A DNA stretch of 30,507 nt, taken from IMG/VR virus record IMGVR_UViG_3300017764_002534, positions 1-30,507 of that record. One strand, given 5' to 3'. Position 1 is the stretch's first letter. Every line of letters starts with the position of its first letter. The translations under genes and the position numbers were made by a program. Shown one piece after another: positions 6,785 to 28,728 of this stretch. Under the pieces are notes generated by a model. The model did not search any database and was not told the origin of the DNA. It saw only the letters and a program-made list of their open reading frames with translations. The DNA comes from a virus.

Positions 6785-6812
6785 TGATTTATAACATAAG
6801 GTGTTTGGAAAT

Positions 6813-7217
6813 ATGGGTGAAAAAAATCAAATAGACGACTTGGTAGAAATCACTCTCCATACGGATGAGGATTTCTTAAAGGTCAAAGAAACATTAACCA
6901 GAATCGGTGTTGCTTCAAGAAAAGACAAAAAACTATATCAGTCTTGTCATATTCTACACAAAAGAGGCAAGTATTACATAGTTCACTTCAAAGAACTATT
7001 TGCGTTGGATGGTCTTAGATCTGATTTTAGCGAAGAAGATAAAGGTAGAAGAAACGCGATTGTTGGGTTACTTGCTCAGTGGGAACTAATAAACATAGTG
7101 AACATTGATCAATGTTCAGAACCAATAACACCAATTAGTAAAATTAAAATCCTAAAGTATTCGGAGCGTGATGATTGGGAACTCTGTCCTAAATATCACA
7201 TAGGAAAGTCGAGATAG
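6813..7217 (+). CDS. regA: RegA translational repressor of early genes
   Basis: RNA-binding repressor that in T4 blocks ribosome initiation on early mRNAs, including 44, 45 and its own. The core DFLKVKETLTRIGVA, KDKKLYQSCHILHKRG and YYIVHFKELF is nearly identical to T4 RegA, and the C-terminus ends CPKYHIGKSR against T4 VPKYTIGN. The frame opens at GTG 6801, but ATG 6813 is preferred: AAGG lies at 6798-6801, about 11 bases before it. Even so the protein has roughly 8 extra N-terminal residues (134 in total against 122 in T4). The 28-base gap after 62 is the largest in this operon and may hold an autoregulatory RegA site. Confidence 0.94.
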   Translation: MGEKNQIDDLVEITLHTDEDFLKVKETLTRIGVASRKDKKLYQSCHILHKRGKYYIVHFKELFALDGLRSDFSEEDKGRRNAIVGLLAQWELINIVNIDQCSEPITPISKIKILKYSERDDWELCPKYHIGKSR

Positions 7218-7224: not shown

Positions 7225-8073
7225 ATGACAACCAGTTTTTGTGATGTAGACTTCAGTGATGGTTTGTCTGGTTGTCGTGTTCGTCTCTCGAATGGGGTCG
7301 TAATAAAAAGTTGCGACAAACCATACGAAACTAGACTATCATCTCAGTGCAAGAAACAAGAGTCGTTTCGTAACTACAATTTTAAAAATATAGAAATCCC
7401 CGCTGTTCTCGGTAAGGACATTGGTTCATTTTCTATGGTATATGCTCAAGGGATGAATTTCTCCTCCTTCTTAGAAAAAGCAAATAAAGTGGACTTAGAT
7501 TTCGTTGTGGAAACTTTGTCTGCTTATTTTGATTTCTTTGAGAGTAGATCTAGACCAAGCGATGAGATTGTCAGAACTAAACTGGTCAACAAATTAAACT
7601 CGATGAAAACATTGGGATTGAGTGTTGTTCAGTTGGAAAAACTATTAGATATACAAACTCATCTAGATATTAGACACTTACCCAAAAGCATGTGTCACGG
7701 AGACTTGACCTTTTCTAATATTATTTTTACGAAAAATAAACTCTGGTTTATTGACATGCTTGACACCTTTATCGATTCGTATTTACTTGATCTAGCAAAA
7801 CTAAAACAAGATCTATTCTACATGTGGTCGAGTAAACTTCGAGGAAAAAAGTCTCTACGAGTGTGTCAGGCGAAGCGTTACATATGGGAAAGACTGTGTG
7901 ATAAAAAAAGTCACCTAATAGAAAATGAATGGTTTGACTTTCTTGATACACTCAATATACTTAGAATAGAACCGTACATTAAAGATGAACACAGACTTGT
8001 GTTTGATGAAATTGTGAAAAGGACACCATACTATGAAAACTCTTATAGTCCCGATGGCGGGAAGATCCACTAG
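7225..8073 (+). CDS. APH/choline-kinase-like phosphotransferase, probable sugar or alcohol kinase
   Basis: A 282-residue protein of the aminoglycoside phosphotransferase / choline kinase fold. The catalytic loop is CHGDLTFSN (157-165) with D160 and N165, and the metal-binding segment FIDMLD follows at 175-180. The N-terminal lobe is short and lacks an obvious P-loop, as is usual for capsule-cluster kinases of this family. It is the first gene of the glycan island and overlaps the nucleotidyltransferase-HAD fusion by 41 bases. A kinase, nucleotidyltransferase and phosphatase set resembles sugar-1-phosphate activation routes such as AmgK/MurU or LicA/LicC (choline). The substrate is not readable here. 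Confidence 0.72.
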   Translation: MTTSFCDVDFSDGLSGCRVRLSNGVVIKSCDKPYETRLSSQCKKQESFRNYNFKNIEIPAVLGKDIGSFSMVYAQGMNFSSFLEKANKVDLDFVVETLSAYFDFFESRSRPSDEIVRTKLVNKLNSMKTLGLSVVQLEKLLDIQTHLDIRHLPKSMCHGDLTFSNIIFTKNKLWFIDMLDTFIDSYLLDLAKLKQDLFYMWSSKLRGKKSLRVCQAKRYIWERLCDKKSHLIENEWFDFLDTLNILRIEPYIKDEHRLVFDEIVKRTPYYENSYSPDGGKIH

Positions 8074-9091
8074 ATTCCCCGGTGAAAAACCAAAGTGGAT
8101 GCTTACGCACCCAAGAACAAATGGATACATGGTCATTGAGTCTTTGTCTGGACTTAATCTAGACTTTTTTGATCAAATTGTTTTTGTTGCCACTGAAGAA
8201 CAACAGGAAAAGTTTTCGTTTATTGATGGACTGAACGCACAACTTGAGGAAAAGGGAATATTAACGAAGTCTAGAGTTTGCCTTTTACCCAATCAAACAA
8301 GGTCACAATCAGAAACAGTTTATCGGGCGATTAAAAAAGAAAATATTTTTGGTTACTTCTATATTAAAGACTCCGATAGTTACTTCAACGCTGATATAGA
8401 AAATACAAAAAATATTGTTAGTTACGCAGATCTATCTGATCAAGATAAAATGAACGCCAGTTCCAAGAGTTATATTGAGATCGATCAGTCTGGTGTAATT
8501 AGTAATATAATAGAAAAGAAAGTTGTGAGTTCGACTTTTTCTGTTGGTGGTTATGGTTTCGCTTCCGCTGACGCATTTTGTCTTGCGTATGAGTCGCTAG
8601 AATATTTTGAAGATGAATGCTACATCAGTCACATAATTTATGAAATGATCTTATCTGGAGAAATTTTCTATGGATTGTCCACCAGTAATTTTGAGGACTA
8701 TGGTACGATTGAGGACTGGGATAATTTTAAGGATGAATACAAAGTTATTTTTACAGACCTAGATGGAACATTGATTACGAACACCGGTCAGTATGACCAC
8801 CCAAAACACGGATCGGGTGAACCTATTGATGATAACATAAATTTTTTAAATCATCTAAAAAGAAAAGGACTCGCCACTGTGATCATAACAACTAGTCGTC
8901 CAGAACACGAACGAGTCACAACCGTAAACGAACTCCGTGAAAAGGGTGTGTTGTATGATCATCTAATCATGGGACTACCGCATTGTAAAAGGTATTTGAT
9001 TAATGATTACGCAAAGAGCAATCCATATCCATCTGCCATATCGATAAACCTCACAAGAAATCTGGGTAATATTGGAGAGTTTTTGAAATGA
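8033..9091 (+). CDS. Fusion: sugar nucleotidyltransferase + HAD phosphatase
   Basis: Two enzymes in one 352-residue chain. Residues 1-232 form a nucleotidyltransferase: PMAGRSTRF (7-15) is the NTP-binding loop, with KPKWML at 19-24, IKDSDSYF at 111-118 carrying metal-binding acids, VGGYGF at 171-176 and EDYGTIEDW closing the domain. Residues 237-352 are a HAD-type hydrolase opening VIFTDLDGTL, with nucleophile D242 and D244, a TTSRPE motif-II segment and a C-terminal DYA acidic motif. Such fusions occur in capsule and LPS loci. ATG 8033 lies 41 bases inside the kinase gene but has AAAAGGA nine bases upstream. It probably activates the product of the adjacent kinase. Confidence 0.82.
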   Translation: MKTLIVPMAGRSTRFPGEKPKWMLTHPRTNGYMVIESLSGLNLDFFDQIVFVATEEQQEKFSFIDGLNAQLEEKGILTKSRVCLLPNQTRSQSETVYRAIKKENIFGYFYIKDSDSYFNADIENTKNIVSYADLSDQDKMNASSKSYIEIDQSGVISNIIEKKVVSSTFSVGGYGFASADAFCLAYESLEYFEDECYISHIIYEMILSGEIFYGLSTSNFEDYGTIEDWDNFKDEYKVIFTDLDGTLITNTGQYDHPKHGSGEPIDDNINFLNHLKRKGLATVIITTSRPEHERVTTVNELREKGVLYDHLIMGLPHCKRYLINDYAKSNPYPSAISINLTRNLGNIGEFLK

Positions 9092-10092
9092 ACATACTGA
9101 TAACAGGTGCTGCTGGTGGAATTGGTTCTACCTTGATTAGAGAATTAAATAATCACTCTTTGTTCTTTATTGATAATCTAAGAAATGGATATGAGCAAAA
9201 TTTGATGGACGATGATGGTAGTCTTTTGGGTGAGTGGAGTCAAACAAGCATCACAGAACCTATGGATGATCTTTGGATGGATGTTGACTTTGACGCTGTT
9301 ATTCATCTTGCGGCGATAACCTCTCTTCCTGATTGCGAGGAAAACTTTACAGAGGCATTTGATATCAATGTCACGGGGACAGCAAATGTTTTACAGTTTT
9401 GTAAAAATAGGGGCATTAAAAATGTCGTGTTCGCATCAACTAGTGCTGTCTATGAAAATACAAAAGATGGTTTGTTGGTGGAAGACATTCCGATCAACCC
9501 CTTACTTTTTTATTCATCAACAAAAATGATGGGCGAGCATATGTGTGATTCGTTTAGAAAAAACTACGACATGAACATAGCGACTCTCAGATTTTTTAAT
9601 GTGTTCGGACCTAGACAAGATTATTTACGAGACAATCCACCCTTATTAAATTATCTTGTTCGTGAATTCTGTAATGATAGAATTCCGATGTTACACTCTG
9701 ATGGAAGTCAAAGCAGGGACTATGTTCATGTTGATGATGTCGTTGAGTTAATTAAAATTTGCATGGAACAGAAAGTCGATGGAACATATAATGTGTGTAG
9801 TGGAGTAAAGATTAGCGTCAAACAAATGGCGGAGTATGTTAGATCAGCACTACATAAAAATGTCGAGGTTACTTATAGAGACTCTAGTAAACTGTGGGAC
9901 ACTAAACCGAATTTGTTCTCCGGAAATTTCCCACTTAAAAAATCTGTAGTCACAAAGGAAACAAATAAAACTTCTCTTGGTAGTTTCGATAAAGCATGGA
10001 AAGAATTGGGATGGAAACCACAAACAAACCTTGAAACTTTAATAAAGAAAGTTTCTGTTGAAATGAAAGACTTGTATTTTGAGGAATCGTGA
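9088..10092 (+). CDS. NAD-dependent epimerase/dehydratase (extended SDR)
   Basis: Second SDR sugar-nucleotide enzyme in the window, 334 residues. It shows TGAAGGIGS at 6-14, HLAAITS at 73-79, ASTSAVYE at 116-123 and the catalytic YSSTK with Y142 and K146; FFNVFGPRQ and RDYVHVDDV are typical of 4-epimerases and 4,6-dehydratase relatives. An insertion rich in Lys/Ser near 275-300 is unusual. The ATGA overlap with the fusion gene suggests it acts on the nucleotide sugar made there. It is clearly divergent from the GalE-like protein at 1300 and so is not a simple duplicate. Whether it epimerises, dehydrates or reduces cannot be told. Confidence 0.87.
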   Translation: MNILITGAAGGIGSTLIRELNNHSLFFIDNLRNGYEQNLMDDDGSLLGEWSQTSITEPMDDLWMDVDFDAVIHLAAITSLPDCEENFTEAFDINVTGTANVLQFCKNRGIKNVVFASTSAVYENTKDGLLVEDIPINPLLFYSSTKMMGEHMCDSFRKNYDMNIATLRFFNVFGPRQDYLRDNPPLLNYLVREFCNDRIPMLHSDGSQSRDYVHVDDVVELIKICMEQKVDGTYNVCSGVKISVKQMAEYVRSALHKNVEVTYRDSSKLWDTKPNLFSGNFPLKKSVVTKETNKTSLGSFDKAWKELGWKPQTNLETLIKKVSVEMKDLYFEES

Positions 10093-10745
10093 TGAACATA
10101 GATCTTTGTGATGTGACCGTTAGATGGATTAATCTTGACTCGGACACAGAAAAAAATGTAATGATGGAAAATTTGTGTGAGCGTATTGGGTTCAAGAACG
10201 CATCCAGATTTTCCGCAGTGACTGGGATTGACCCACATGAGGGAGTCAACCCCGGAGAAGAACACTACCGCAACTGCGCCGAATCTCACTTTAAAGTATA
10301 TGAGGAAACTGATACCTATCCACTTCTCATTTTAGAGGATGATGTGGAAATTGAGGAGTCTGTTTTTACATGTGATTTAAGAAACGTACCAGATGATGCT
10401 GATGCCATTTATCTTGGCATATCACATGGTGACGGAAATTACTTGGCACAAGATGTTGGTGGTGGTTGGATGCGGGTGGAAAGAATATTTGCAACGCATT
10501 CCATAATGTATCTAAATCCAAATATATGTAACGCCGTTACTGAAGTTGGTAAGAGATGGATATATGAACACAACAGACCATTTGATGTTGGGTTTGCGTA
10601 TGAGGTTCAACCTCATTTTAAAGTTTATGCTCCCCACGTTCCTTTCTTCTATCAGGCAGACTCGAAGAATTCTAAAAATAAATGGGAACATTTAACTAGA
10701 ACTCCACTTAACATTAAAAAGAAATTTACGATGGGAACAATGTGA
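10092..10745 (+). CDS. GT25-like glycosyltransferase
   Basis: A 217-residue protein with the family-25 (LPS galactosyltransferase type) signature: VRWINLDSDTEKN near the N-terminus (INLD at 13-16) and LLILEDDVEI around 78-87, with EDD the putative metal-binding site. RFSAVTGID is also typical of GT25. It is probably a retaining or inverting sugar transferase using a UDP sugar; donor and acceptor are unknown. Two in-frame starts exist. GTG 10089 overlaps the previous stop, but ATG 10092 has GAGG at a better seven-base spacing and is preferred. The C-terminus is basic. Confidence 0.75.
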   Translation: MNIDLCDVTVRWINLDSDTEKNVMMENLCERIGFKNASRFSAVTGIDPHEGVNPGEEHYRNCAESHFKVYEETDTYPLLILEDDVEIEESVFTCDLRNVPDDADAIYLGISHGDGNYLAQDVGGGWMRVERIFATHSIMYLNPNICNAVTEVGKRWIYEHNRPFDVGFAYEVQPHFKVYAPHVPFFYQADSKNSKNKWEHLTRTPLNIKKKFTMGTM

Positions 10746-11545
10746 TGAGTAATCTTTGTTATAATCTGCTCGGCAACTTTGGTCGATTAGGAAACGTCAT
10801 GTTTCAATACGCTGCCACACTAGGCATCGCAAGAAAAACAAATATGAACCCTATCGCAGCGATATCAAACGTTGAAAACTTTTCTACTCTGTTTAAACTT
10901 GGTTCCGTCACAGATGCGGTCGTAGAAACTAATATGTTATTCAATGAAGAGTCTTTTTGCTATGATGATAGAGCATTTCGTATTGCGGTTCCAGAAAATT
11001 CAAGTGTAGATATTAGAGGGTACTATCAAACCCCAAAGTATTTTTCACACATCGAAAATGAAGTCAAACAAAATTTTGATTTCAATGAAAATATCAAAAA
11101 CAACGCAATTGATTTGATACCATCTGAACCTTGTGTCTCTGTTCATGTTCGTCGAGGAGACTACGTTCCAATCTCAGACTATCATTTCAACCAAGCAATT
11201 GAGTATTATGAAAATAGCATAAAACACTTTTCAGATTACATTCCTGTATTTTTCTCGGATGATATTTCTTGGTGTAAAGAGACTTTCTCTCATATCAGCA
11301 ACGCTGTTTTTGTAGAAAATAAAGAGACGTTAAACCTCAACGCAAGAATTTCCTCCGATGTTTCTGGATATGTAGATATGTGTGCGATGTCAATGTGTAA
11401 CGCCCACGTTATAGCAAATAGTAGTTTTAGTTGGTGGGGTGCTTATTTGGGCGGAGGACCAACAATAGCACCAAAGACTTGGTTTGGACCAAGTGGTCCA
11501 CAAGATTGGCAAGACATTTATTGTGATGATTGGATATTAGCATGA
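10745..11545 (+). CDS. GT11 alpha-1,2-fucosyltransferase-like enzyme
   Basis: Family GT11, the fold family of bacterial WbsJ/FutC and vertebrate FUT1/FUT2, which add fucose in alpha-1,2 linkage to galactose from GDP-fucose. GRLGNVMFQYA lies at 13-23, the GDP-fucose-binding HVRRGDY at 134-140, FFSDD at 169-173 and NSSFSWWGAYL at 225-235; all conserved GT11 motifs are present and in order. Length of 266 is slightly short but complete. The start is ATG 10745, overlapping the preceding TGA by one base; GTG 10742 is an alternative. No transmembrane anchor is present, so it is likely cytoplasmic. Donor identity is inferred from the family. Confidence 0.9.
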   Translation: MSNLCYNLLGNFGRLGNVMFQYAATLGIARKTNMNPIAAISNVENFSTLFKLGSVTDAVVETNMLFNEESFCYDDRAFRIAVPENSSVDIRGYYQTPKYFSHIENEVKQNFDFNENIKNNAIDLIPSEPCVSVHVRRGDYVPISDYHFNQAIEYYENSIKHFSDYIPVFFSDDISWCKETFSHISNAVFVENKETLNLNARISSDVSGYVDMCAMSMCNAHVIANSSFSWWGAYLGGGPTIAPKTWFGPSGPQDWQDIYCDDWILA

Positions 11546-12180
11546 GAAAAATAGAAGCAGTGATGTTTGATTTGGATGGAGTTTTAGTTGATGCCTGTGA
11601 CTGGCATTACTTTGCACTCAATGAAGCGTTGATGGAAGTCGTCGGCACCGTGATATCAAGGCACGACCATGAAACAACATACAACGGATTGCCGACCAAT
11701 GTGAAACTTGAAATGCTTGGTCTTGACGAAAACCAGCGTGAAAAGGTTTGGGAACTGAAACAAGATCGCACACTCAAAACCATAAGAGAAAATGCAAAAA
11801 ACCAAGTTGAGAAGGTCGATCTATTCGAGTCTCTTATCGATCACGATATTAAAATCGCATGTGTGACAAACTCGATTCGCATGACAGCAAACGAAATGCT
11901 ACATGCAACGGGTCAGTTGAATTATTTTGATGAGATAATTAGTAACGAGGATGTTGAGAACAACAAACCATATCCAGATTGTTATAACTTCGCTGTGAAT
12001 AAACTTGATGTTGACCCAGATAACTGTATAATCGTTGAGGACAGTATGAAGGGTATGCAGGCGGCACAATCCAGTGTGGTGCCAATTGAAAATATTTGGC
12101 ATGTGCAAAACTCGGAAGATGTGACCAAAGAAGGAATGTGGAGGTTTGTGAATGAAAATTTTGATACCAATGGCAGGTGA
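11542..12180 (+). CDS. HAD-family phosphatase (beta-phosphoglucomutase-like)
   Basis: A 212-residue haloacid-dehalogenase-type hydrolase with nucleophile motif FDLDGVLVDA (D10, D12), motif II CVTNS, the lysine motif in NNKPYPDCY and the acidic motif IIVEDSMKG. An alpha-helical cap sits between motifs I and II (about 20-90), placing it in the PGP/beta-PGM subgroup. It could dephosphorylate a sugar phosphate or shift a phosphate. The start at 11542 is an ATGA overlap with the GT11 gene; the frame is open 12 bases earlier through TTG, which lacks support. The 3' end overlaps the next nucleotidyltransferase by 29 bases. Confidence 0.85.
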   Translation: MRKIEAVMFDLDGVLVDACDWHYFALNEALMEVVGTVISRHDHETTYNGLPTNVKLEMLGLDENQREKVWELKQDRTLKTIRENAKNQVEKVDLFESLIDHDIKIACVTNSIRMTANEMLHATGQLNYFDEIISNEDVENNKPYPDCYNFAVNKLDVDPDNCIIVEDSMKGMQAAQSSVVPIENIWHVQNSEDVTKEGMWRFVNENFDTNGR

Positions 12181-12868
12181 AGGCAGTCGGTTTGCGAAAG
12201 AAGGATATGTTTTTCCTAAACCACTTATTGATGTAAATGGAAAACCAATGATCCAAAGGGTCATTGAAAATTTAGACTTTGATGCTGATTATATTTTCCT
12301 TGTTCGCTCTGAACATCTTGAAAAATACTCAGGTCTTCGATCAACACTTCAAAGAATCACAGATGACAGATGCACCATTGTAGAGGTTGACTCTCTTACG
12401 GAAGGTGCTGCTTGCACATGTTTGCTGGCGAAAGAACACATTGATGTTGATGACGATTTACTAATCGCCAACTCAGATCAAATTATTGAATATGAAAAAG
12501 ATAACTTCACAATTCTAAAGAACAACACTGATTTTGATGGTATTGTTTACTGCTTTAATGATGTTCATCCAAAGTGGTCCTTTGCTAGACTAAACTCCCG
12601 ACACATGATTACTGAAATCAGAGAGAAAGAACCGATTTCAAATATTGCGACTTGCGGTATTTACTGGTTTAGACATGGATCTGATTTTGTTAGTAACGCA
12701 GAAACCATGATTGAAAATGACCTCCGAGTTAACGGTGAGTTTTATGTTGCACCCACATACAATCAAATGATCGGTGATGGTAAAAAGGTATCTCCGTTTT
12801 ATGTAACAAAGATGCACGGTATTGGAACACCAGAAGACCTTAACAATTATCTAAGGGTGTCACGATGA
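12152..12868 (+). CDS. Sugar-phosphate nucleotidyltransferase
   Basis: A 238-residue stand-alone nucleotidyltransferase with PMAGEGSRF (6-14), FPKPLIDVNGKPMI (21-34), the acidic LIANSDQII segment near residue 107 and the closing GIGTPEDL. It should join a sugar-1-phosphate to an NTP, giving NDP-sugar and pyrophosphate. A strong Shine-Dalgarno GGAGG at 12140-12144, seven bases before ATG 12152, fixes the start inside the HAD gene. It differs from the fused nucleotidyltransferase at 8033, so at least two activated sugars may be made. It is followed by a cupin gene with an ATGA overlap. The nucleotide and sugar are not determinable. Confidence 0.86.
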   Translation: MKILIPMAGEGSRFAKEGYVFPKPLIDVNGKPMIQRVIENLDFDADYIFLVRSEHLEKYSGLRSTLQRITDDRCTIVEVDSLTEGAACTCLLAKEHIDVDDDLLIANSDQIIEYEKDNFTILKNNTDFDGIVYCFNDVHPKWSFARLNSRHMITEIREKEPISNIATCGIYWFRHGSDFVSNAETMIENDLRVNGEFYVAPTYNQMIGDGKKVSPFYVTKMHGIGTPEDLNNYLRVSR

Positions 12869-13197
12869 TAACATCTCATTTAGATAAGATGAAGGGTGGT
12901 TGGTTTGTTGGTTGCTTTGATCCAACAGAATTTTATTCTGAGGATTTTGAGGTTGGATATAAAGAGTTTAAAAAGGACGAACCACACGCTGATCATTATC
13001 ACAAACTAGGGACTGAAATAAATCTAATCACAAGTGGTAAGGTTGAATTTAACGGCAAAGTATTTGAAAAGGGTAGTATTGTGATCATTGAACCCGGAGA
13101 AAAAACCACAACTAAATTTATAGAAGACTCATCAATCGTGGTCGTAAAAACACCATCGCTCCCTGATGATAAATTTTTATGTGGGGACACACTATGA
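12865..13197 (+). CDS. Small cupin-domain protein
   Basis: A 110-residue single cupin barrel. The metal-binding first motif is visible as HADHYHKLGTEINLITSG, with H44, H46 and E51, and the second motif is weak (KGSIVIIEPGEKTTTKF). Small cupins in glycan loci can be sugar isomerases, 3,4-ketoisomerases or regulators; here it lies between a nucleotidyltransferase and the GQPR genes and overlaps both by ATGA. It could act on the product of the preceding enzyme, but it is equally possible that it is a stress- or dioxygenase-type cupin. Confidence 0.72.
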   Translation: MITSHLDKMKGGWFVGCFDPTEFYSEDFEVGYKEFKKDEPHADHYHKLGTEINLITSGKVEFNGKVFEKGSIVIIEPGEKTTTKFIEDSSIVVVKTPSLPDDKFLCGDTL

Positions 13198-13949
13198 AAA
13201 AAGCAGCGATTCTTTACTCCGGACAACCAAGAGATATCAGGGAGTGTTGTGCAAATCATGTTCACCATTTGATCCGAAACAATCCAGACTTTGATTTTGA
13301 TATCTTCGGACACATATGGATAGATCACGACAATCCCTTTTGGGATATCGCACCCGAAAGAGGGTCATGGAAAGACGACGATGCTAAGTTTATGCTTAAA
13401 AATTGGAAACCAAAAAGAATTGTTTTTGAATCCCCCAAATCATTTAAGTCCAACTTAACTCCAAATCCAGCATGCCCACACCCAGTTCAAAATATCATGT
13501 CAATGTTGTATAGTGTCGAACAAGCAAATATCGCTAGAAATGAATATGAAAAACAAGAAGGGGTCGAGTACGACTGTGTAATTCGTCTGAGAACTGACGT
13601 ATATTTTGGAGACAACGCAGATATTAAATTGTCAACACTAGATCTAAGAAAAATAAATGTGGTTGAGCGAGGTGCCCATAGGGACTATGGTTGCAATGAT
13701 CAATTTGCCATATCAAATTCTGCAAACATGAATGCCCACTCAACCACTTTCTCATCAATTGATAAGTTGGTTGAAATGGGTTGTATTGTAAATCCAGAGT
13801 GTCTTGTTGGGTACAATTCTTTTGTTCATCATGGTATTGATTGTGACTCACATAAACGGGATCATGGTGATAAGTTACAGTTTACTCTGCATAGAGATCG
13901 ATATGCTTCATACAACGGAGGTTGTTTTAACAGGGAATATGAACTATGA
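13194..13949 (+). CDS. 'GQPR' family protein A, putative glycosyltransferase
   Basis: First of three adjacent paralogues of a family I cannot name. It opens AAILYSGQPRD (GQPR at 10-13), continues DFDIFGHIW (34-42), and has YDCVIRLRTDVYF with RLRTDV at 131-136, followed by a CNDQFAISNS segment. An N-terminal Rossmann-like strand, then a centre ending in an R-x-D motif, resembles GT-A transferases such as GT8 or GT25. I infer a glycosyltransferase from that and from its position; no family match is claimed. At 251 residues it is the most divergent of the three. Start 13194 is an ATGA overlap with the cupin; an in-frame ATG at 13179 is less likely. Confidence 0.68.
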   Translation: MKKAAILYSGQPRDIRECCANHVHHLIRNNPDFDFDIFGHIWIDHDNPFWDIAPERGSWKDDDAKFMLKNWKPKRIVFESPKSFKSNLTPNPACPHPVQNIMSMLYSVEQANIARNEYEKQEGVEYDCVIRLRTDVYFGDNADIKLSTLDLRKINVVERGAHRDYGCNDQFAISNSANMNAHSTTFSSIDKLVEMGCIVNPECLVGYNSFVHHGIDCDSHKRDHGDKLQFTLHRDRYASYNGGCFNREYEL

Positions 13950-14779
13950 AAATCGCACTTGCATTTTACGGTCAACCCCGATTCATTAAAAATCCTGTTG
14001 TTTTAGAAACGTATAAAAAATATTACTTGGACAAGTATGATTGTGATGTATTCGCTCACATGTGGTGGGGTGAACCCCAAAATTATAAGGTAGCACTTCA
14101 TGTAAAAAATAAAGGAGAAATGATATCTCCAGATTCCTTAGATTACTTTAATGAAAATTACAATCCGGTAACAATTGAAACTGAACCACCCAAAGAATTC
14201 ATTCCCACTGATGTGGTGAAAGAATCTCTTGATAGGAGGTTTACGGGGAAGTATCCACATGTAGGATCACACGCTCATCAACCATTAAATTATTGGAGTG
14301 ATATTACATACAGTAATGCTTTTTCTCAAATGTATAGCATTCAAAAATCATCTCGCATGGTAATGGAACATGCAAGTAAACTTAATATTGAATATGACTT
14401 TGTAGTTCAGGCAAGATATGACACCATGTTGTTTGATATACCTGATTTGACCGAGTGTGAAAAGAAGTTACACTTACCAAACCATCACGGTAGATTCCCC
14501 GACCTACATCTGTTTTTCGCACACAAACACTTGGATTGGGCAGGTAATATTTTTGATGACATAGAAACAGTTTACGATAGAATTGATAGACCCGGTTGTG
14601 AGAGATGGAAGTTTGAATCTTTTAAAAATAGATTCCCACTCTCCGATATAAATCCAGTCGCTATGGACGGAATGTGTGTCCGATCTATTGATGATAATGA
14701 AAAGAATTCAATTAGTGGATTCTGCTATCAACACAGAGAAACACAAAAAGCGATAGACGCGAGAGGATATTACAAATGA
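13946..14779 (+). CDS. 'GQPR' family protein B, putative glycosyltransferase
   Basis: A 277-residue paralogue of its two neighbours. Shared landmarks: FYGQPR at 7-12, DCDVFAHMWWG at 32-42, GEMISPDSL, a YSIQKSSR helix, YDFVVQARYDT with ARYDT at 156-160, HHGRFPD and FPLSDINPVAMDG. Close to protein C along the whole length and at DNA level in several stretches, so a tandem duplication is evident. Most extra length against A lies in a loop around 95-120 (containing GSHAHQPLNYW). Starts ATGA-overlapped with A. Function inferred as sugar transfer only from position and fold-like pattern. Confidence 0.68.
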   Translation: MKIALAFYGQPRFIKNPVVLETYKKYYLDKYDCDVFAHMWWGEPQNYKVALHVKNKGEMISPDSLDYFNENYNPVTIETEPPKEFIPTDVVKESLDRRFTGKYPHVGSHAHQPLNYWSDITYSNAFSQMYSIQKSSRMVMEHASKLNIEYDFVVQARYDTMLFDIPDLTECEKKLHLPNHHGRFPDLHLFFAHKHLDWAGNIFDDIETVYDRIDRPGCERWKFESFKNRFPLSDINPVAMDGMCVRSIDDNEKNSISGFCYQHRETQKAIDARGYYK

Positions 14780-15588
14780 AAATCGCAATTGCATTTTATG
14801 GTCAACCAAGGTATGTTACAAATAAGCACATCCTAAACTCATATAAAAAGTATTTTTTGGACAAGTATGATTGTGATGTGTTTGGACATATGTGGTGGGG
14901 AGATCAGACTGAGTATGACACATCTTCTTGGAATAACTGCGTAGGAGAAATGATATCTCCCGACTCTTTAGAGTTTTTTAGTAAAAATTACGATCCCATA
15001 GTTATTGAAACAGAGGAACCAAGAGAATTTGAATTTGACGACCACGTTGCCAAGTTCATTGATGAAAAGTTTACTGGCAAAAATCACTGCCCCAAGAATG
15101 GTCAAATATGGTGTCAAAGAAACTACAGTAATTTGATGTCTCACTTGTATTCTATGCAGAAATCATCTAGAATTGTTTCTGATTACTCGAACGAAAAGGG
15201 CATCACCTATGATTTTATAGCACTAGCGAGATACGATACTATTTTGTTTGATATTCCGAATCTAGATGAATGTGATAAAGGAAAATTACATCTACCATGT
15301 CATCACGGTAGATTCCCTGATGTGGTAATGTTTTGCCCCCATAAACACCTAACATGGTCTGGTAATCTTTTTGATGATATTTCTAATGTATATGATAAAG
15401 TTGATACCCCTGATCCTGTACGATGGAAATATGAATCTTTTATAAGTAGATTCCCACTATCGGATATCCAACCAGCAAGGATGGATGGGTGGTGTTGTCG
15501 CTCTATTGGTGATGATGAAAATATTGCACGGTGTTTTGAACACAGAAATCAAGAGGTCTGGGAAAGATCGAAAGGATATTATAAGTGA
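14776..15588 (+). CDS. 'GQPR' family protein C, putative glycosyltransferase
   Basis: A 270-residue tandem copy of protein B, with FYGQPR at 7-12, DCDVFGHMWWG at 32-42, GEMISPDSL, YSMQKSSR, ARYDT at 151-155, CHHGRFPD, FPLSDIQPARMDG and a C-terminal RSKGYYK echoing RGYYK in B. Variation is concentrated between residues 45-60 and 80-115, which could be donor or acceptor-binding loops that diverged after duplication. ATGA overlap with B; the stop overlaps the next gene's GTG start. No membrane segment. Function is inferred as for B. Confidence 0.68.
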   Translation: MKIAIAFYGQPRYVTNKHILNSYKKYFLDKYDCDVFGHMWWGDQTEYDTSSWNNCVGEMISPDSLEFFSKNYDPIVIETEEPREFEFDDHVAKFIDEKFTGKNHCPKNGQIWCQRNYSNLMSHLYSMQKSSRIVSDYSNEKGITYDFIALARYDTILFDIPNLDECDKGKLHLPCHHGRFPDVVMFCPHKHLTWSGNLFDDISNVYDKVDTPDPVRWKYESFISRFPLSDIQPARMDGWCCRSIGDDENIARCFEHRNQEVWERSKGYYK

Positions 15589-16508
15589 AAATAGCAGCAG
15601 TTGTGCCTCCGGCATCTTTAAATTTGGGAAATGACTTTTTTGCCGAGGGAGGAATGGAATGTTTTAGACAAGTCTTCTCTGAACATGAGATGGACATACA
15701 CTATATTGAATTTTTTGATAGTGGTGAGAATGGGTTTGCTCCCAACGGGCAGACTTCTTACTTCACACCCGCCACTTTAGAATGGATTAAAAAAGAGGCA
15801 GACTTAGTTGTTCTTTTTGCGGGGTGTGCCTTACATGAGGGACAGAGACATTTGTTCCAACCACTCTTAGATACAGGAGTTCCATTTATCGGGTGGGGTC
15901 TGTCGCCCACATCTTATAATGACTCCGATGTGAAATTTGCAAAAGAAATCTCTGACAAGTCACTCGCACTAATTACCAGAGATAATTTAATCGCAGAACT
16001 AGTTGGAGAGTATCCGAAGTTTATCAGTGGCATGGACGGTGGTTGGTGGATGGGAGACTCTTATAAAAGACCGGGTAAAGCAACAGGATATACGGTCATA
16101 AATATCGAAGAGGGTAACTCATTAAATGTTGGACAATCACTAGCAAAGTATGACGAACTAAAATCACAAGATAAAACGATTTACATGGTATCTAACAACT
16201 GTGAAAGAAATTGTCATCACATGCACCCCGGATCACTTTTGATCACCAGTGCAAGACATCTGTATACCACCTTCGCCAATGCAGAACATGTCATCACCAC
16301 TCGGGCACACACCACTATTTGTTGTTTAACTAACGGAGTACCTGTTGAATATGTGGGTCATCTTGACTATAGGACTAGAAGTTTGATGGCGACTGTTGGA
16401 GTTGACATGGGTAATTTGAGTTCATATAATCCAGATGATGTTCAGAAAATTGTCGCATCCAGTAAGAAAAACTTTGTCGAGATGATAAGAGACAAGATAA
16501 AACTTTGA
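15585..16508 (+). CDS. Polysaccharide pyruvyltransferase-like protein
   Basis: A 307-residue protein resembling the polysaccharide pyruvyltransferase family (CsaB/WcaK type), which adds ketal-linked pyruvate from PEP to a sugar. Signs are the N-terminal NLGNDFFAEGG (13-23), the central FIGWGLSPTSYND, the ALITRDN segment near 128-134 and the diagnostic VITTRAHTTICCLTNGVPVEYVG (R240, H242), where the family has a conserved R-x-H. GTG 15585 overlaps the preceding stop. Pyruvylation would add a negative charge to the glycan. The family call is fairly good; the reaction here is inference, and a GT-B-like transferase is the alternative. Confidence 0.75.
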   Translation: MKIAAVVPPASLNLGNDFFAEGGMECFRQVFSEHEMDIHYIEFFDSGENGFAPNGQTSYFTPATLEWIKKEADLVVLFAGCALHEGQRHLFQPLLDTGVPFIGWGLSPTSYNDSDVKFAKEISDKSLALITRDNLIAELVGEYPKFISGMDGGWWMGDSYKRPGKATGYTVINIEEGNSLNVGQSLAKYDELKSQDKTIYMVSNNCERNCHHMHPGSLLITSARHLYTTFANAEHVITTRAHTTICCLTNGVPVEYVGHLDYRTRSLMATVGVDMGNLSSYNPDDVQKIVASSKKNFVEMIRDKIKL

Positions 16509-16522
16509 TAATGGAAAAATAA

Positions 16523-17323
16523 ATGGTGGCGTTTTACAATTGTGTTGATCACTCTATAATACAGCAGGGAGACTTGTTCCCAGATCCCCCAGAACTAAAT
16601 GTTTTGGTGGACTGCTCTATCATTAGTGACGATGCCTCTTTTACAAAAGAAAACACGATAGCATGGATAGTCGAAAGTCCCGCTATAATAGAAGCATATC
16701 ATCCCGGTTTTTCTGATGAGTTGAAAAACAGACTAAAGAATGGTTCTCATAATTTTAGTAAATTATACACATACGATCCCTCATATAAAGACTACCCAAA
16801 CGTGGTGATGTTTGACTACTGTCCTGCCTCCACATGGATCGAAAAAGAAAATAGAATCATTCACAACAAAACAAAACTTGCCTCTTATATTTCTTCAAGT
16901 AAAAGGTTCACTTCTCTACAAGTCGCTCGAAATAAACTCATAGAACAACTCATGTTCAACGAAAGCGTTGACGTTTATGGTAGAAACGTGAACCCAATTG
17001 AAAAAAAGTCTGACGCTCTACGAGATTACTGTTTTTCATACGCAATAGAAAATTGCTCTCATCCCGGATACTTCACAGAGAAAATAGTTGACTGTTTTGT
17101 AACAGGGACGGTTCCGATCTATTTGGGAGATCCGACAGTGGATCGACTTTTTGATCCAAGAGGATTTATAAAACTTGAAAATAATCAAGATATAGAGTTG
17201 TCATTTGACAGGTATTATGGTATGATGCCTCACATAGAAAAAAATTACGAGATTGCTATGAATATTAAAAATGAATTTAGGGACCAGATCCCTGTTATGA
17301 TTGAGGATTATATTAATGCATAA
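16523..17323 (+). CDS. GT10 (alpha-1,3/1,4-fucosyltransferase-like) enzyme
   Basis: C-terminal signature of family GT10: DYCFSYAIENCSHPGYFTE at about 168-186, then KIVDCFVTGTVPIYLGDP with YLG at 200-202 and FDPRGFI near 210-216. These correspond to the GDP-fucose-binding region of bacterial and vertebrate alpha-1,3-fucosyltransferases. The N-terminal acceptor half is reduced, giving 266 residues against over 300 in typical members. ATG 16523 follows a 14-base gap, the largest within this part of the cluster; an ATG at 16511 is followed by a stop after three codons. Together with the GT11 gene it makes two predicted GDP-fucose-dependent transferases. Confidence 0.88.
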   Translation: MVAFYNCVDHSIIQQGDLFPDPPELNVLVDCSIISDDASFTKENTIAWIVESPAIIEAYHPGFSDELKNRLKNGSHNFSKLYTYDPSYKDYPNVVMFDYCPASTWIEKENRIIHNKTKLASYISSSKRFTSLQVARNKLIEQLMFNESVDVYGRNVNPIEKKSDALRDYCFSYAIENCSHPGYFTEKIVDCFVTGTVPIYLGDPTVDRLFDPRGFIKLENNQDIELSFDRYYGMMPHIEKNYEIAMNIKNEFRDQIPVMIEDYINA

Positions 17324-18254
17324 ATTACCCATCACTTTTATCATACCATACAAGAGAGATTGTTCTGACAGGGAAAGAAATCTTAGAGTTGTTGTTCATC
17401 ATTTGTTACACAACTATGACGCGAAGATAATTGTCTTTGAGGCAGATGAAAAAGAAACCATAAGTTCTATTTTGCCCGAAGATGATAGAATTACTTGCAT
17501 GTTCGAGTATCTCTCACTGGATGGTGTTTTCCATCGAACAAGATATCTAAACATGATGCTTGCCGAGGTAACCACGCCAATCGTTGCAAACTATGATGTA
17601 GATGTAATGTTCGATCCCAAAACAATTGATCGTGCTTGTTCTTTAATTTTAAACGATGAGATGGATGTGGTTTATCCATATGGTGCTGGGACCACAGATC
17701 AGTTTAGAATGTTTATTCCCTTTGATGGTGATTATATTATCGACAATAAACTGTACGAACACCCAACTAAAATTATAGAAGAATTGGCAGAATATTTGGG
17801 ACATAATAATTGTCCCATCGTAACGAATTCTCAAGAAAATAAAGTAAGTGTTTCTACTCCGGATCCCATGTTGGGTGAACAGACAGAGGGTGAATTTAAG
17901 GAGTATGGTATTTGCTCTTGGACAACCCTCGCCGGTCATTGCATAGTTTTTAGAACACAAACCTATTTTGATGGATACATGGAAAATGAACTGTTTTGTG
18001 GATGGGGTCCGGAGGATGGAGAAAGATTACATCGATTCACCACTCTAGGATACAGAGTAGTTCATCTCTCCGGGGAAAATGTGTTTCACCTAGAACACAG
18101 AAATCCCCCATCCTCAACCGATTTCAATCCAAGTCTAAATCGAAATAATGAACTCTGGAACATGTACAAGATCTATCATGATAAAGATAATTATGAAAAG
18201 ATTTACGAAGCACTCGACTATTATAAAAAGTATAAGAAAAAGGAACTAGTGTGA
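17316..18254 (+). CDS. GT2-type glycosyltransferase with GT7C-like galactosyltransferase motif
   Basis: A 312-residue GT-A enzyme. The N-terminus ITFIIPYKRDCSDRERNLR resembles polypeptide GalNAc-transferase/chondroitin-synthase-type transferases; NYDVDVMFDP carries the D-x-D motif (D94, D96), and FCGWGPEDGERLHR (GWG at 229-231, ED at 233-234) is the GWGxED motif of beta-galactosyl and chondroitin-type transferases. The C-terminus is lysine-rich. Start ATG 17316 overlaps the GT10 stop by eight bases; the frame is open back to a TTG at 17301, which is not needed. Probably uses a UDP-sugar donor; acceptor unknown. Confidence 0.82.
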   Translation: MHKLPITFIIPYKRDCSDRERNLRVVVHHLLHNYDAKIIVFEADEKETISSILPEDDRITCMFEYLSLDGVFHRTRYLNMMLAEVTTPIVANYDVDVMFDPKTIDRACSLILNDEMDVVYPYGAGTTDQFRMFIPFDGDYIIDNKLYEHPTKIIEELAEYLGHNNCPIVTNSQENKVSVSTPDPMLGEQTEGEFKEYGICSWTTLAGHCIVFRTQTYFDGYMENELFCGWGPEDGERLHRFTTLGYRVVHLSGENVFHLEHRNPPSSTDFNPSLNRNNELWNMYKIYHDKDNYEKIYEALDYYKKYKKKELV

Positions 18255-19204
18255 ACAAGAAAAAGATAGCAATAATCGGTCCCGGCATCATGCCCATTCC
18301 ACCCGAGGGGTGGGGTGCTGTTGAAATTTTAGTTTGGAGACATAAGTGTTCTCTAGAAAAGTTAGGACATGAAGTCACCATCTACAACACCAAAGATCTT
18401 CACGGTGTTGCAAATCACATCAACTCATCTGACTATGATTTTGTTCACAATCAGTACGACGAGTTCGCTGGATTTCTTTCACAAGCGTTGCAAGTTCCTT
18501 TTTGTACGACAACCCACTTTGGTTATATCATGAGAGAACATCTGTGGGGGCATGGATACGCACATGATGTCTTCCCGAAGACTCTCCTAAGTCCTTCTAT
18601 TCTTGCATTGTCAGAAGGTATTAAAAACATGTATTTGTCTAAGGGATATCAAGGCAAGATCGATTATTTGAGAAACGGTGCTGAAGTCGGAGAGTTTAAG
18701 TTTAAAGATCATGGAAACGGCAAGGCAATTGTAGTTGGAAAAATTGAAGATAGAAAACGACAGAGAGACATAGCGATTGCATGTGGAGGCAAGTCTCATG
18801 TTGATTTTGCGGGTCCATCCATCGATCCAAACTACAGAGATACTGAAACTTGTAAGCATATTGGTCACTGGACAAAACCAGAACTATATGAAAATCTTTC
18901 AAACTACTCTACACTTGTTCTTTTCAGCGATGGAGAGGCAGCACCTCTTGTTGTACCCGAGGCGTTCGCTGCCGGACTAAATGTGGTCGTAAGTGAGTGT
19001 GCGTCTGCCAACATCGACAGAGATCTTCCCTTTGTTACAGTTGTTCCTGACGATGTGATTCAAGATGATCTTCCAGATGTGATCAATGAATCTTGTGAGA
19101 GTAACCAACAATACAGAAAAGAAATCAGACAACTCGCAGAGGATCACTATGACTGGGATGTGATCATGGAAGAATATGTCGAAAAGATTGGAGTAACGAT
19201 ATGA
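18251..19204 (+). CDS. GT4 family (GT-B fold) glycosyltransferase
   Basis: A 317-residue GT-B enzyme. The N-terminal block IIGPGIMPIPPEGWGAVEILV at 8-28 is the classic GT4 donor-side opening, and SDGEAAPLVVPEAFAAG (226-241) is the C-terminal nucleotide-sugar-binding segment, including E229 and E237 in the family's E-x7-E position. NGAEVGEF and the VVGKIEDRKRQ segment also fit GT4. Such enzymes retain anomeric configuration and commonly build capsule or LPS chains. GTG 18251 overlaps the previous stop. Donor and linkage are not readable. Confidence 0.87.
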   Translation: MNKKKIAIIGPGIMPIPPEGWGAVEILVWRHKCSLEKLGHEVTIYNTKDLHGVANHINSSDYDFVHNQYDEFAGFLSQALQVPFCTTTHFGYIMREHLWGHGYAHDVFPKTLLSPSILALSEGIKNMYLSKGYQGKIDYLRNGAEVGEFKFKDHGNGKAIVVGKIEDRKRQRDIAIACGGKSHVDFAGPSIDPNYRDTETCKHIGHWTKPELYENLSNYSTLVLFSDGEAAPLVVPEAFAAGLNVVVSECASANIDRDLPFVTVVPDDVIQDDLPDVINESCESNQQYRKEIRQLAEDHYDWDVIMEEYVEKIGVTI

Positions 19205-19884
19205 TCGGGTGGTTGGTAATAGGAACAGCGAAGTATTTTGAAATTGGTGTAAACTGCCTTCAGAGTATCAAAGAAAATTATAAGGGGGAACACGACTCTA
19301 AGTATTTTCTATTCACTGATCGTGGTGCAGAAATACCAGAGGACATGGGGTGGATTGACGTAATCGATATAACACACCTTCCTTTTCCATTTATCTCTAT
19401 GGCAAGATATGCTCACTTTATGGACAGGAAAGATATGTTCTCCGAGTGTGACTATCTTTACTATATTGATGCAGATAGTTTGTTCATTGATGTTGGAGAT
19501 GAAATTCTCAGTAAGAGAACCACCGTCTTACATCCAAGTTACTACATGAACGAAACAGACACACATCCTTACGACAGAAACCCCGAGTGTCAGGCGTACA
19601 TTCCTATGGGAAGTGGTAACCAATATTATCAAAACTGTTTTCAGGGTGGAGAAAAAGAAGAGTTTCTAAAGATGTCGGAAATCCTCCGTGATAGAACAAA
19701 CACTGATCTGGGAAATGATGTCATCCCAAAGTGGCACGATGAAAGTCACATGAATAAATACATGAGTGAGAACCCACCAACATTAATATTAAATTCTGGA
19801 TACGCATTTCCAGAGGGGTGGGATCTGCCCTTTGAACAAAAAATCATGGGTATATCTAAAAACAACGTAGAAATTAGGAAATAA
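19201..19884 (+). CDS. GT6 glycosyltransferase (ABO / alpha-1,3-galactosyltransferase family)
   Basis: Family 6 member related to the human ABO transferases and alpha-1,3-galactosyltransferase. In order: FLFTDR at 36-41, PFPFISMARYAHF at 61-73, YLYYIDADSLF at 85-95 with the metal-binding D90-A-D92, YYQNCFQGG at 142-150 and KWHDESHMNKY at 177-187. The last is almost the vertebrate WHDESHLNKY, and its glutamate (E181) corresponds to the catalytic one. NSGYAFPEGWD ends the fold. At 227 residues it is a soluble catalytic domain without the vertebrate membrane stem. Donor is expected to be UDP-Gal or UDP-GalNAc, which the GalE-like enzyme could provide. ATGA overlap with the GT4 gene. Confidence 0.92.
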   Translation: MIGWLVIGTAKYFEIGVNCLQSIKENYKGEHDSKYFLFTDRGAEIPEDMGWIDVIDITHLPFPFISMARYAHFMDRKDMFSECDYLYYIDADSLFIDVGDEILSKRTTVLHPSYYMNETDTHPYDRNPECQAYIPMGSGNQYYQNCFQGGEKEEFLKMSEILRDRTNTDLGNDVIPKWHDESHMNKYMSENPPTLILNSGYAFPEGWDLPFEQKIMGISKNNVEIRK

Positions 19885-19886
19885 AA

Positions 19887-21236
19887 ATGAGTAGACCAAC
19901 CGTTACATTGTGTATGATTGTTAAGGATGAGAGTCATATCATCCATGAGTGTCTTGAGTCGATGCTACCGTATATTGACCGATATGATATCACTGATACA
20001 GGATCTACTGATAAAACTGTAGAAATCATTCGTGAGTGGGGGAAGAAGAATAATATTCCCGGAACGGTATATGAAACCGATTGGAAAGGTTTTGGAAAGT
20101 CAAGAACAGAATCACTAAGAAACGCTGATAAGGGCGGCGCAGATTATTCGTGGGTCATTGATGCCGACGACATGATTAAGGGTGATTTTAAATATCCACC
20201 TGAGTTTGGACAACACTGGGGATATACTCTAAAAATTCATAGAGGTGACTTTGAGTGGTGGAGAAACCAAATATTCAAGAACAATGTTGGTTGGGAATAT
20301 ATTGGTGTTATTCATGAATATGCAAACTGCGAGAATTTACAAAAAGAGGGCGGAACCATAGCAAGACTTTTGGGGAACTATTGTATCGATGCTCGAACAA
20401 TGGGTAATCGAACAAAAGAATTTGATGATGAAAATGATCCAGAAGCATGGAAGAAAAAGTATCTTCACGATGCAGAGACACTTAAAGATTGTTTAGAAAA
20501 TCCTGATAATATTAATTATGATCCAGACAATCAACGATATCATTTTTATCTCGCACAGTCTTACTTTGATGGAGGAGACTTTAAAAACGCAAAGGTGTGG
20601 TATGAAAAGCGTGCTGAACTCGGAGGGTGGGAAGAGGAACAATGGTACTCTGTTCTCAGAGTTGCCATGTGCATGTCAAACCTTGGAGAAGACTGGGCAA
20701 AAATCCAAGACGTTTTCTTGCAATCATATAACCTCAGACCATCTCGCGTAGAACCCTTGTATAACCTCGCTAGAATTCATAGATTGAACGGAAACGCTAG
20801 ATTGGGTTATCTTTTTTCTAAAATGGGTTGTACCATTGGTTTTCCCGCCAATGATGTCTTGTTCGTTGCGAAGGACACATACGAATGGCAGATCTGGGAT
20901 GAACTCGCCTCCACTGCTTGGTACTCGGGTGATATGGAAGCGGGACTCTTTGCTTCAAATAAATTATTAACAGAAAAAAAATATCCTGAATCAGAGCATG
21001 AAAGAATTGTAAATAACTTCAAACAATATGCCGCATGGCACGAAGAACAGGAAAAAGCAAAGAAAAATGCATTAGAGGAAGCGGAAAAAGAAAAATACAT
21101 AAGGGAAGAAGTAGAACGTAGACTCTCCGAAGAAAGAAAAAACAATGCCAAAAATAGAGAACAACAAAATAAGATAAATAAAAGGAGAAAGAAGTCAAAG
21201 GCGGCAAGCAAGTCGCGTAAAGCATCGAGGAGATGA
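19887..21236 (+). CDS. GT2 glycosyltransferase with helical repeats and Lys/Glu-rich tail
   Basis: A 449-residue protein. Residues 1-180 are a GT-A domain: TLCMIVKDESHIIHECLES, DTGSTDKT (37-44) and WVIDADD with the D-x-D motif at 92-95. From about 215 to 370 there is a TPR-like helical stretch (YFDGGDFKNAKVWYEK, YSVLRVAMCMSNLG, LYNLARIHRLNGN). From about 384 the chain becomes a charged coiled coil, ending in a Lys/Arg/Ser-rich tail (KRRKKSKAASKSRKASRR). GT2-TPR proteins can glycosylate proteins, and TPR regions bind polypeptides, so transfer onto a protein acceptor is plausible. It is the last gene before the fibre operon, separated by 3 bases. Acceptor is inference. Confidence 0.82.
   Translation: MSRPTVTLCMIVKDESHIIHECLESMLPYIDRYDITDTGSTDKTVEIIREWGKKNNIPGTVYETDWKGFGKSRTESLRNADKGGADYSWVIDADDMIKGDFKYPPEFGQHWGYTLKIHRGDFEWWRNQIFKNNVGWEYIGVIHEYANCENLQKEGGTIARLLGNYCIDARTMGNRTKEFDDENDPEAWKKKYLHDAETLKDCLENPDNINYDPDNQRYHFYLAQSYFDGGDFKNAKVWYEKRAELGGWEEEQWYSVLRVAMCMSNLGEDWAKIQDVFLQSYNLRPSRVEPLYNLARIHRLNGNARLGYLFSKMGCTIGFPANDVLFVAKDTYEWQIWDELASTAWYSGDMEAGLFASNKLLTEKKYPESEHERIVNNFKQYAAWHEEQEKAKKNALEEAEKEKYIREEVERRLSEERKNNAKNREQQNKINKRRKKSKAASKSRKASRR
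21173..21180 (+). promoter_or_regulatory. Candidate T4-type late promoter (GATAAATA)
   Basis: GATAAATA fits the NATAAATA late-promoter pattern described for marine T4-like phages and the T4 TATAAATA box. It lies 60 bases before the ATG of the first structural gene (21240), inside the tail end of the glycosyltransferase gene, where late transcription of fibres would need to start. The tract is very A-rich, so a chance match is possible. Confidence 0.4.
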
Positions 21237-21239: not shown

Positions 21240-21673
21240 ATGGCATCCGGTAGATACGACATCACTGCGGAGCAGGGAGTTACTTTTAAATTTCATATTC
21301 GGTATAGGGATTCTAGGAAAAGATTAGTTGATTTAGATCCTGATCTTGGATGGACTGCCCGTATGCAAGTTAGACGTTCAGCAGAAGACTCAGATCTTCT
21401 ACTCAACATTACAACTTCTGGTGTCACTGGTGGTGGATCCACTGGTGAATTTACGTCAGGGTCGGGTGTTGCTGGTTCCGGCGGTATCACATTAAATGCA
21501 TCCTCAACAGGAGGCACTGGTCATAGTGGCGGAATCTTGTTAGGGGTAGACGCAAATACAATGTCTAGCGTACCGAAAGGTAATCACTTTTATGATTTAG
21601 AGTTAGTCCTAAATAACAATACTGTTGTCAGATTAATTGAAGGTCGATTCACTACAGACAGAGAGATCACTAG

Positions 21674-21677
<4 letters not shown>
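21240..21677 (+). CDS. Small virion-associated protein upstream of fibre gene
   Basis: A 145-residue protein beginning [25 protein letters not shown], with the later segments [10 protein letters not shown] and YDLELVLN...[15 protein letters not shown]. This pattern recurs directly upstream of fibre genes in marine T4-like phages; it is probably a structural or fibre-attachment protein, but I know no proven role. Between residues 57 and 100 it holds a Gly/Ser/Thr-rich linker. It starts three bases after the glycosyltransferase stop, with AGGAG (21228-21232) about 7 bases upstream, and overlaps the fibre gene by ATGA. Confidence 0.75.
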
Positions 21678-24378
<2,701 letters not shown>

Positions 24379-24382
<4 letters not shown>

Positions 24383-24870: not shown

Positions 24871-24873
24871 ATA
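24866..24873 (+). promoter_or_regulatory. Candidate late promoter (GATAAATA) before second fibre gene
   Basis: GATAAATA overlaps the stop codon of the upstream gene and lies 24 bases before the ATG at 24890; it is immediately followed by GGAG (24874-24877), the likely ribosome-binding site. If transcription began about 10 bases after the box, the ribosome site would be lost, so either it is read from upstream transcripts or the box is not used. It matches the same octamer as at 21173. Confidence 0.35.
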
Positions 24874-24889
24874 GGAGTAAGAACAAAAC

Positions 24890-28727: not shown

Positions 28728-28728
28728 T

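Follow-up and report, generated by a model that had tools for sequence, protein, structure and literature searches.

The locus between regA and gp43

The DNA analysed here (the window) is the complete IMG/VR record IMGVR_UViG_3300017764_002534, and since the whole record comes to 30,507 bases, the window is a fragment of a T4-like phage. It carries a cluster of sugar-enzyme genes that leads directly into collagen-like fibre genes and includes members of the glycosyltransferase (GT) families GT11, GT10 and GT6, to which the enzymes making ABO and Lewis blood-group sugars in humans belong. An earlier note on this DNA had likened these three transferases to a blood-group set; it overlooked the fixed site of the cluster, the two glycosyltransferases that anchor it and its hypervariability, and these outweigh the blood-group analogy. 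The larger finding is a hypervariable cassette of predicted glycan-building enzymes between regA and gp43 in uncultivated marine T4-like phages.

All genes of interest lie on the + strand. To the left of the cluster are the T4-like core genes for T4 RNase H (rnh), gp45, gp44, gp62 and RegA (regA, 6801..7217, PF01818 E = 8e-42), the last forming the left border of the locus. To its right are those for dUTPase (dut, starting at 27879), a DUF1599 protein and the gp43 DNA polymerase (28612..30507, about 50% identical to cyanophage gp43), which forms the right border and runs off the fragment. These flanking genes (gp45, gp44, gp62 and regA on one side, dUTPase and gp43 on the other) are of T4-like type and confirmed the phage origin already suspected; the source is an uncultivated, aquatic phage without an animal link. 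In the interval from the end of regA (7217) to the start of the dUTPase gene (27879), the sugar-enzyme cluster spans 7225-21236, and genes of virion type follow at 21240-27864. The open reading frames (ORFs) of the cluster overlap or abut, all on the + strand and with gaps of at most 14 nt. Promoter-like sites were no more frequent than in shuffled sequences, and neither regular terminators nor promoters gave evidence of an operon.

Window proteins were compared by tblastn with about 140 fetched viral loci. A shared order was seen directly: gp44, gp62, regA, a GT25-type transferase gene (GT25L, the left anchor), usually GT11, variable genes, a gene for a GT2 domain with TPR repeats (GT2T, the right anchor), fibA, collagen-like ORFs, dut, a mazG-like gene and gp43. 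In counts that are not all independent, as some loci come from one contig, regA was followed by GT25L at a median gap of 21 bp in 70 loci (55/70 within 100 bp), and GT25L abutted GT11 (44/45 loci within 100 bp). GT2T lay within 300 bp of fibA in 49 of 61 loci and within about 9 kb of gp43 in 40/40. A set of 75 contigs, for which the two anchors were the main selection criterion, contained GT10 in 48 cases (above the cut-off in 42), GT11 in 37 cases and GT6 in five. The distance from gp44 to gp43 is only about 3-8 kb in the cyanophages compared, and therefore the site is expanded here.

Turnover of the cassette interior

Identities were compared across the five nearest contigs (G046, G047, G048, G049 and G030) and a sixth, more distant one (G050). 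The genes from rnh to regA were 77-100% identical in the five; in G050, regA, gp62 and rnh were 71-74% identical and hyp2 55%. Inside the locus, GT25L shared 42-81% and GT11 33-59% with the near relatives, and the HAD, nucleotidyltransferase, cupin, pyruvyl transferase and three paralogous genes were found in none of the near relatives compared. At the other end, GT2T was 69-75% identical in six near relatives, and dut and gp43 were 57-96% identical where present. This turnover of the interior is a direct observation, and cassette exchange between stable borders would be its simplest reading.

The variable genes begin next to regA with a kinase-like gene (7225..8073, APH/choline-kinase fold, sub-threshold) that had no counterpart in 7/7 relatives examined. 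It is followed by a nucleotidyltransferase plus HAD phosphatase-like gene (8033..9091), with none in seven relatives and 60-73% identity in L086, L098 and L100, and by a nucleotide-sugar epimerase/dehydratase of the short-chain dehydrogenase type (SDR; 9088..10092, PF01370 3e-47). The specificity of this last enzyme could not be named: several NCBIfam models match, none above its equivalog cut-off among the matches listed. Downstream of GT25L and GT11 are a HAD sugar-phosphatase/phosphomutase-like gene (11530..12180, PF13419 9e-28), a sugar-1-phosphate nucleotidyltransferase (12152..12868, PF00483 5e-7) and a small cupin-like protein (12865..13197, PF12973 0.013, sub-threshold) with homologues at 38-41% in Bellamy, L159, L164 and L023. 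Three tandem diverged paralogues (13179..15588, starting at 13179, 13946 and 14776) each match phrog_13607 (E = 8e-33 to 3e-38) and are probably glycosyltransferases, of no family that we could name; relatives of them occur within the S-CAM9 and Bellamy clusters. Next come a polysaccharide pyruvyl transferase-like gene (15585..16508, PF04230 33 bits against a cut-off of 25.3) and GT10. Within the former, just upstream of GT10, lies a perfect sigma-70 consensus, TTGACA-17-TATAAT (16402-16430). Between GT10 and GT6 are a GT7C/GT2-like transferase (17301..18254, PF02709 19.4 bits, sub-threshold; phrog_15655 2e-50) and a GT1/GT4-type transferase (18251..19204, phrog_33732 5e-70; 91% identical in the sibling contig L061).

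Anchor glycosyltransferases and fibre genes

GT25L (10089..10745) was assigned by its family profile and its fold. Matches to PF01755 were found for 27 of 41 family members, the window's own falling below the cut-off, and in a profile search of PDB the mimivirus protein R655 (7.6e-7) was the sole sequence match. The AlphaFold model (pLDDT 94) retrieved R655 (2e-8) and COLGALT1 (3e-7) in Foldseek, with a TM-score of 0.6. On profile and predicted fold, GT25L is thus a GT25-type enzyme resembling COLGALT1 and R655; R655 itself is a putative collagen transferase (PMC9546862).

The product of GT2T (19887..21236) matched GmaR (1.9e-15) and SunS (3e-6) in a profile search of PDB, along with TPR proteins. 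This GmaR/SunS-type architecture, a GT2 domain with TPR repeats and homology to protein-modifying enzymes, marks it as a predicted protein glycosyltransferase. GmaR glycosylates flagellin, and for its TPR region a role in binding this substrate has been proposed (PMC9638930).

The fibre genes run on from GT2T uninterrupted and in the same direction. Directly 3' of GT2T, fibA (21240..21677) encodes an Ig-like virion/baseplate-type protein (pLDDT 94) whose top Foldseek match was the baseplate of phage Douge, with the 80alpha baseplate also among the matches. It is followed by a collagen-like tail fibre with GAT repeats (21674..24382, phrog_6320 tail fiber 9e-23, collagen runs), a fibre-adjacent protein with no family match (24379..24870; 90% identity in G048, 31% in G046) and a second collagen-like fibre with GAT repeats (24890..26743, tail PHROGs 1e-7; Pfam Collagen 22 bits, sub-threshold). 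Threonine occupied the Y position in 46/69 collagen triplets of the two fibres. Beside the fibres lies a gene for a LamG/ConA-like lectin-domain protein (26740..27864, PF13385 5e-5, sub-threshold), a possible receptor binder.

The GT11, GT10 and GT6 enzymes

The earlier note had placed GT11, GT10 and GT6 members in one co-directional cluster. Profiles and motifs agreed, and this membership is likewise seen directly: a Pfam scan assigned all three to the named families above curated cut-offs, GT11 to PF01531 (87 bits, cut-off 23.9, E = 1.7e-24), GT10 to PF00852 (51.2 bits, cut-off 23.9, E = 1.5e-13) and GT6 to PF03414 (108.4 bits, cut-off 25, E = 4.2e-31). The GT11 alpha-1,2-fucosyltransferase ORF runs from 10742 (GTG), or from 10745 (ATG) as first proposed, to 11545; that of the GT10 alpha-1,3/4-fucosyltransferase occupies 16523..17323, and the GT6 gene, of the ABO/alpha-3-galactosyltransferase family, 19201..19884, with the end expected. 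GT11 also matched phrog_2644 (4e-63) and had no match among PDB sequences; GT10 matched the H. pylori fucosyltransferase 2nzw (2e-11). The motifs cited previously were all found, namely HVRRGDY and NSSFSWWG in GT11, ENCSHPGYFTEK and VPIYLGDP in GT10, and WHDESHMNKY in GT6, and alignment placed the HxRRGDY motif of GT11 and the conserved EN...Y/FTEK...PIY core of GT10. Differences between the window and L061 fell mostly at third codon positions, as in gp44 and regA, and the three are therefore maintained genes. Nonsynonymous divergence (dN) from L061 rose from GT6 (0.13) through GT10 (0.22) to GT11 (0.36); synonymous divergence (dS) was near or past saturation.

GT6 matched BoGT6a (6e-31), its closest solved relative, and ABO (6e-30). 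It has the catalytic Glu in WHDES and a DXD nucleotide motif (as DAD), as in the CAZy GT6 family. Some DXD form was present in 17/18 phage GT6s, the window's included, and bacterial GT6s are mostly NXN (46 vs 24); on this motif, metal dependence would be expected for the window enzyme. Its donor loop reads YYQNCFQGG. The residues QNC, also found in L061, stand where the aligned ABO chain has MGA and BoGT6a has AGG; we take LGG to denote A and MGA to denote B specificity. The loop therefore matches neither A, B nor BoGT6a, so the A/B-like specificity implied by the blood-group comparison is not supported, and a call of Gal or GalNAc as donor from the loop had to be dropped. In a GT6 tree the window and L061 stood together on a separate long branch, and the GT6s of phages were scattered over more than one group; a single phage origin is not supported, as six label changes are required along the tree, no fewer than three of them forced by well-supported branches. 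Other GT6 genes included one with the bacterial NXN motif fused behind a methyltransferase-like domain (L040:10947-12257) and those in the very large phage records L013 and L021 (642 kb and 304 kb), which occupy separate branches of the tree.

The combination of the three families, of which the earlier note knew no other description, is uncommon but not new. All three were also found in six other viral contigs from IMG/VR (L061, L062, G047, G049, G070 and G025/L040, the first two near-identical to each other) and in 6/80 bacterial GT6 loci. GenBank phage records, nearly all of cyanophages, held relatives of GT6 in 71 cases, of GT11 in 102 and of GT10 in 22. GT11 and GT6 are neighbours in Bellamy and S-CAM9 and near one another in P-SSM2, and GT10 occurs with GT11 in S-SM2, S-SRM01, S-SSM7 and S-SCSM2R; a profile test found GT6 and GT10 together in 0/14 GenBank records. 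The bacterial sample comprised 80 GT6 loci of GTDB genomes, with neighbours counted within about 10 kb. GT11 was present in 46 of these and GT10 in 11, and the loci with all three included Moorena, Hoeflea and Treponema. GT11 accompanied GT6 in 21 of 23 phage loci, and the two lay at most 300 bp apart in 26/46 bacterial and 10/21 phage loci. As a genomic pattern, this pairing favours a galactose bearing alpha-1,2-fucose as acceptor for GT6 and fits an order of Gal, then alpha-1,2-Fuc, then GT6 action, in agreement with the known acceptor of the A/B synthases and BoGT6a (PMC3961637).

Other flanking genes and host

A GalE-like UDP-glucose 4-epimerase gene (1255..2289), which could supply UDP-Gal, lies upstream as the earlier note had proposed (NCBIfam TIGR01179 337 bits against a cut-off of 262). 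With 68-79% identity in the five near relatives holding the whole gene, this predicted epimerase is part of the conserved left flank, outside the variable cassette. A small SET-domain protein is encoded between gp44 and gp62 (6090-6410), at the same position in some relatives. The contig L041 carries apparent GDP-mannose dehydratase and fucose synthase genes between gp45 and gp44 (L041:385-2285), splitting the clamp and clamp-loader genes. Among 25 related contigs, all fragments, none contained psbA, yet the gene was present in both cyanophage controls; a cyanobacterial host is thus not supported, which speaks against cyanobacteria without excluding them. HTVC008M was set aside as a model, the two pieces examined being without its regA-gp43 interval.

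Proposed glycosylation of the phage's own fibres and competing explanations

The reading we prefer, to which we give a probability of about 0.5, is that swappable enzymes of a conserved glycan-and-fibre locus glycosylate the collagen-like fibres or baseplate in the cytosol. As to acceptor, linkages, order of addition and purpose, we infer the following. Soluble enzymes would build sugars stepwise on fibre or baseplate proteins in the host cytosol during infection, before assembly. The GT2-TPR protein probably attaches the first sugar, in the way that GmaR modifies flagellin, and GT25L would add a hexose, probably galactose. GT11 would then add alpha-1,2-fucose to give an H-type fucosylated branch, GT10 a second fucose, and a hexose or N-acetylhexosamine may be placed on the Fuc-Gal unit by GT6 as a cap. 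Swaps of the interior would alter the fibre coat as O-antigen cassettes alter that of a bacterium, and the purpose may be to protect the fibres or to tune adsorption. More tentatively, the locus could be a phage 'serotype' system, in which a fixed-site, exchangeable cassette places fucosylated oligosaccharides of the blood-group families on collagen-like fibres, with GmaR-like and COLGALT-like priming and O-antigen-style diversification.

A self-contained O-antigen system requires polytopic membrane proteins. In a hydropathy screen of 29 distinct regA-GT2T intervals, none of 238 ORFs had four or more transmembrane-like segments, against 62/946 in bacterial GT6 loci (p = 8e-7). This absence was observed directly, and no polytopic flippase or polymerase of a Wzx/Wzy-type cluster was seen in the 29 intervals. 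Taken with the GmaR-like anchor and the fibre genes that abut the cluster, it makes glycosylation of virion proteins the more probable reading.

Several observations weigh against this interpretation. Cyanophage clusters likewise had 0/279 polytopic ORFs, so the absence on its own is compatible with editing of lipid-linked host glycans, and soluble enzymes might instead carry out such editing at the membrane face. GT25 also contains lipopolysaccharide (LPS) galactosyltransferases, and the weaker fold matches of GT25L include beta-1,4-galactosyltransferases. The fibA fold match is weak (TM-score about 0.5), with immunoglobulin folds scoring alike, and no GenBank phage had a relative of GT2T that exceeded 35% identity. 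COLGALT-style chemistry on hydroxylysine is unlikely, given that the fragment showed no lysyl hydroxylase and that Thr predominates at the Y position. Neither GDP-mannose dehydratase nor fucose synthase reached its NCBIfam cut-off within the 30,507-base fragment; this means little because the record is a fragment, and by inspection GDP-mannose dehydratase-like ORFs are present in the relatives L040 and L041.

The strongest competitor, less likely in our view but still a serious one, is that the enzymes add fucose/hexose branches to host lipopolysaccharide or capsule precursors during infection, which would block competing phages (superinfection exclusion) or keep progeny off debris. LPS synthesis includes GT25 and GT11 enzymes, and bacterial GT6-GT11 pairs usually lie in clusters of surface-polysaccharide type, with polytopic membrane genes in 34/52 longer loci. 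This is also the published reading for pelagimyophage and cyanophage glycosyltransferases (PMC7029224, PMC9602691). However, the 29 cassettes were without any membrane protein resembling a flippase, polymerase, ligase or phosphoglycosyl transferase, and editing of the host surface leaves the constant coupling to a GmaR/SunS-like transferase and fibre genes unexplained.

It is improbable that the transferases decorate hypermodified phage DNA bases against restriction, in the manner of T4 and other phages. We know of no DNA substrates for GT6, GT10 or GT11, and the fragment showed neither a base hydroxymethylase nor an enzyme of that kind. Phage DNA-modifying glycosyltransferases do exist, to judge from the part of PMC12619734 that cites Pyle et al. 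2024, and a dUTPase gene and one of the DUF1599 family ('nucleotide modification associated') lie beside gp43; these two genes, however, belong to the conserved right border, outside the variable cassette. Similarly improbable is histo-blood-group mimicry in the strict sense, in which the phage would build the very ABO/Lewis antigen of animals: the three families are all represented and BoGT6a, the closest solved relative, yields A-antigen-like products on 2'-fucosyllactose (PMC3961637), but the GT6 donor loop is unlike those of A, B and BoGT6a, GT10 and GT6 were neighbours (within 300 bp) in 0/10 phage loci, the cassette holds many further sugar enzymes, and the phage comes from water, uncultivated and with no link to animals.

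Relation to known systems and significance

Kyanoviridae cyanophages carry sugar-enzyme clusters with the same families, often adjacent (GT6-GT11 in P-SSM2, Bellamy and S-CAM9; GT10-GT11 in S-SM2, S-SRM01 and S-SSM7), but these lie near nrdB, pstS or psbA and are without the GT2-TPR anchor. The host recognition cluster of pelagimyophages and cyanomyophages is likewise a hypervariable island of marine T4-like phages that holds glycosyltransferases and tail fibres; it lies between vrlC and gp14, with regA not mentioned (PMC7029224), whereas the locus described here is not at that site, interrupts the replication module between regA and gp43 and is bounded by anchor genes of its own. GmaR and SunS share with GT2T the GT2 domain, followed in GmaR by a TPR region, and GmaR acts on a filament protein; the similarity of GT2T to GmaR is distant, with no antirepressor role known for GT2T, whose function is predicted from sequence. 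Mimivirus encodes collagen-modifying enzymes (L230, R655, R699) and viral collagens, and so also pairs collagen-like proteins with a GT25-type enzyme of the same fold, R655 being putative; here the phage is tailed, the repeats are Thr-rich GAT and no hydroxylase was seen. In mycobacteriophages, phage-encoded transferases decorate virion proteins, namely capsid and tail tube in the account of Freeman 2023 given in PMC12619734, whereas fibres are proposed here, with a far larger exchangeable enzyme set. A literature search, with subscription papers outside its scope, found no description of a phage blood-group or fucosylated-fibre system.

Phage glycosyltransferases are usually interpreted as editors of host LPS. 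A protein-type transferase and a COLGALT-like enzyme next to collagen-like fibres, with no membrane genes and an O-antigen-like turnover, make fibre glycosylation directly testable in phages of a widespread marine kind. Glycobiology also gains soluble GT10, GT11 and DXD-type GT6 enzymes from the locus, which is a natural test of GT6/GT11 co-evolution as well.

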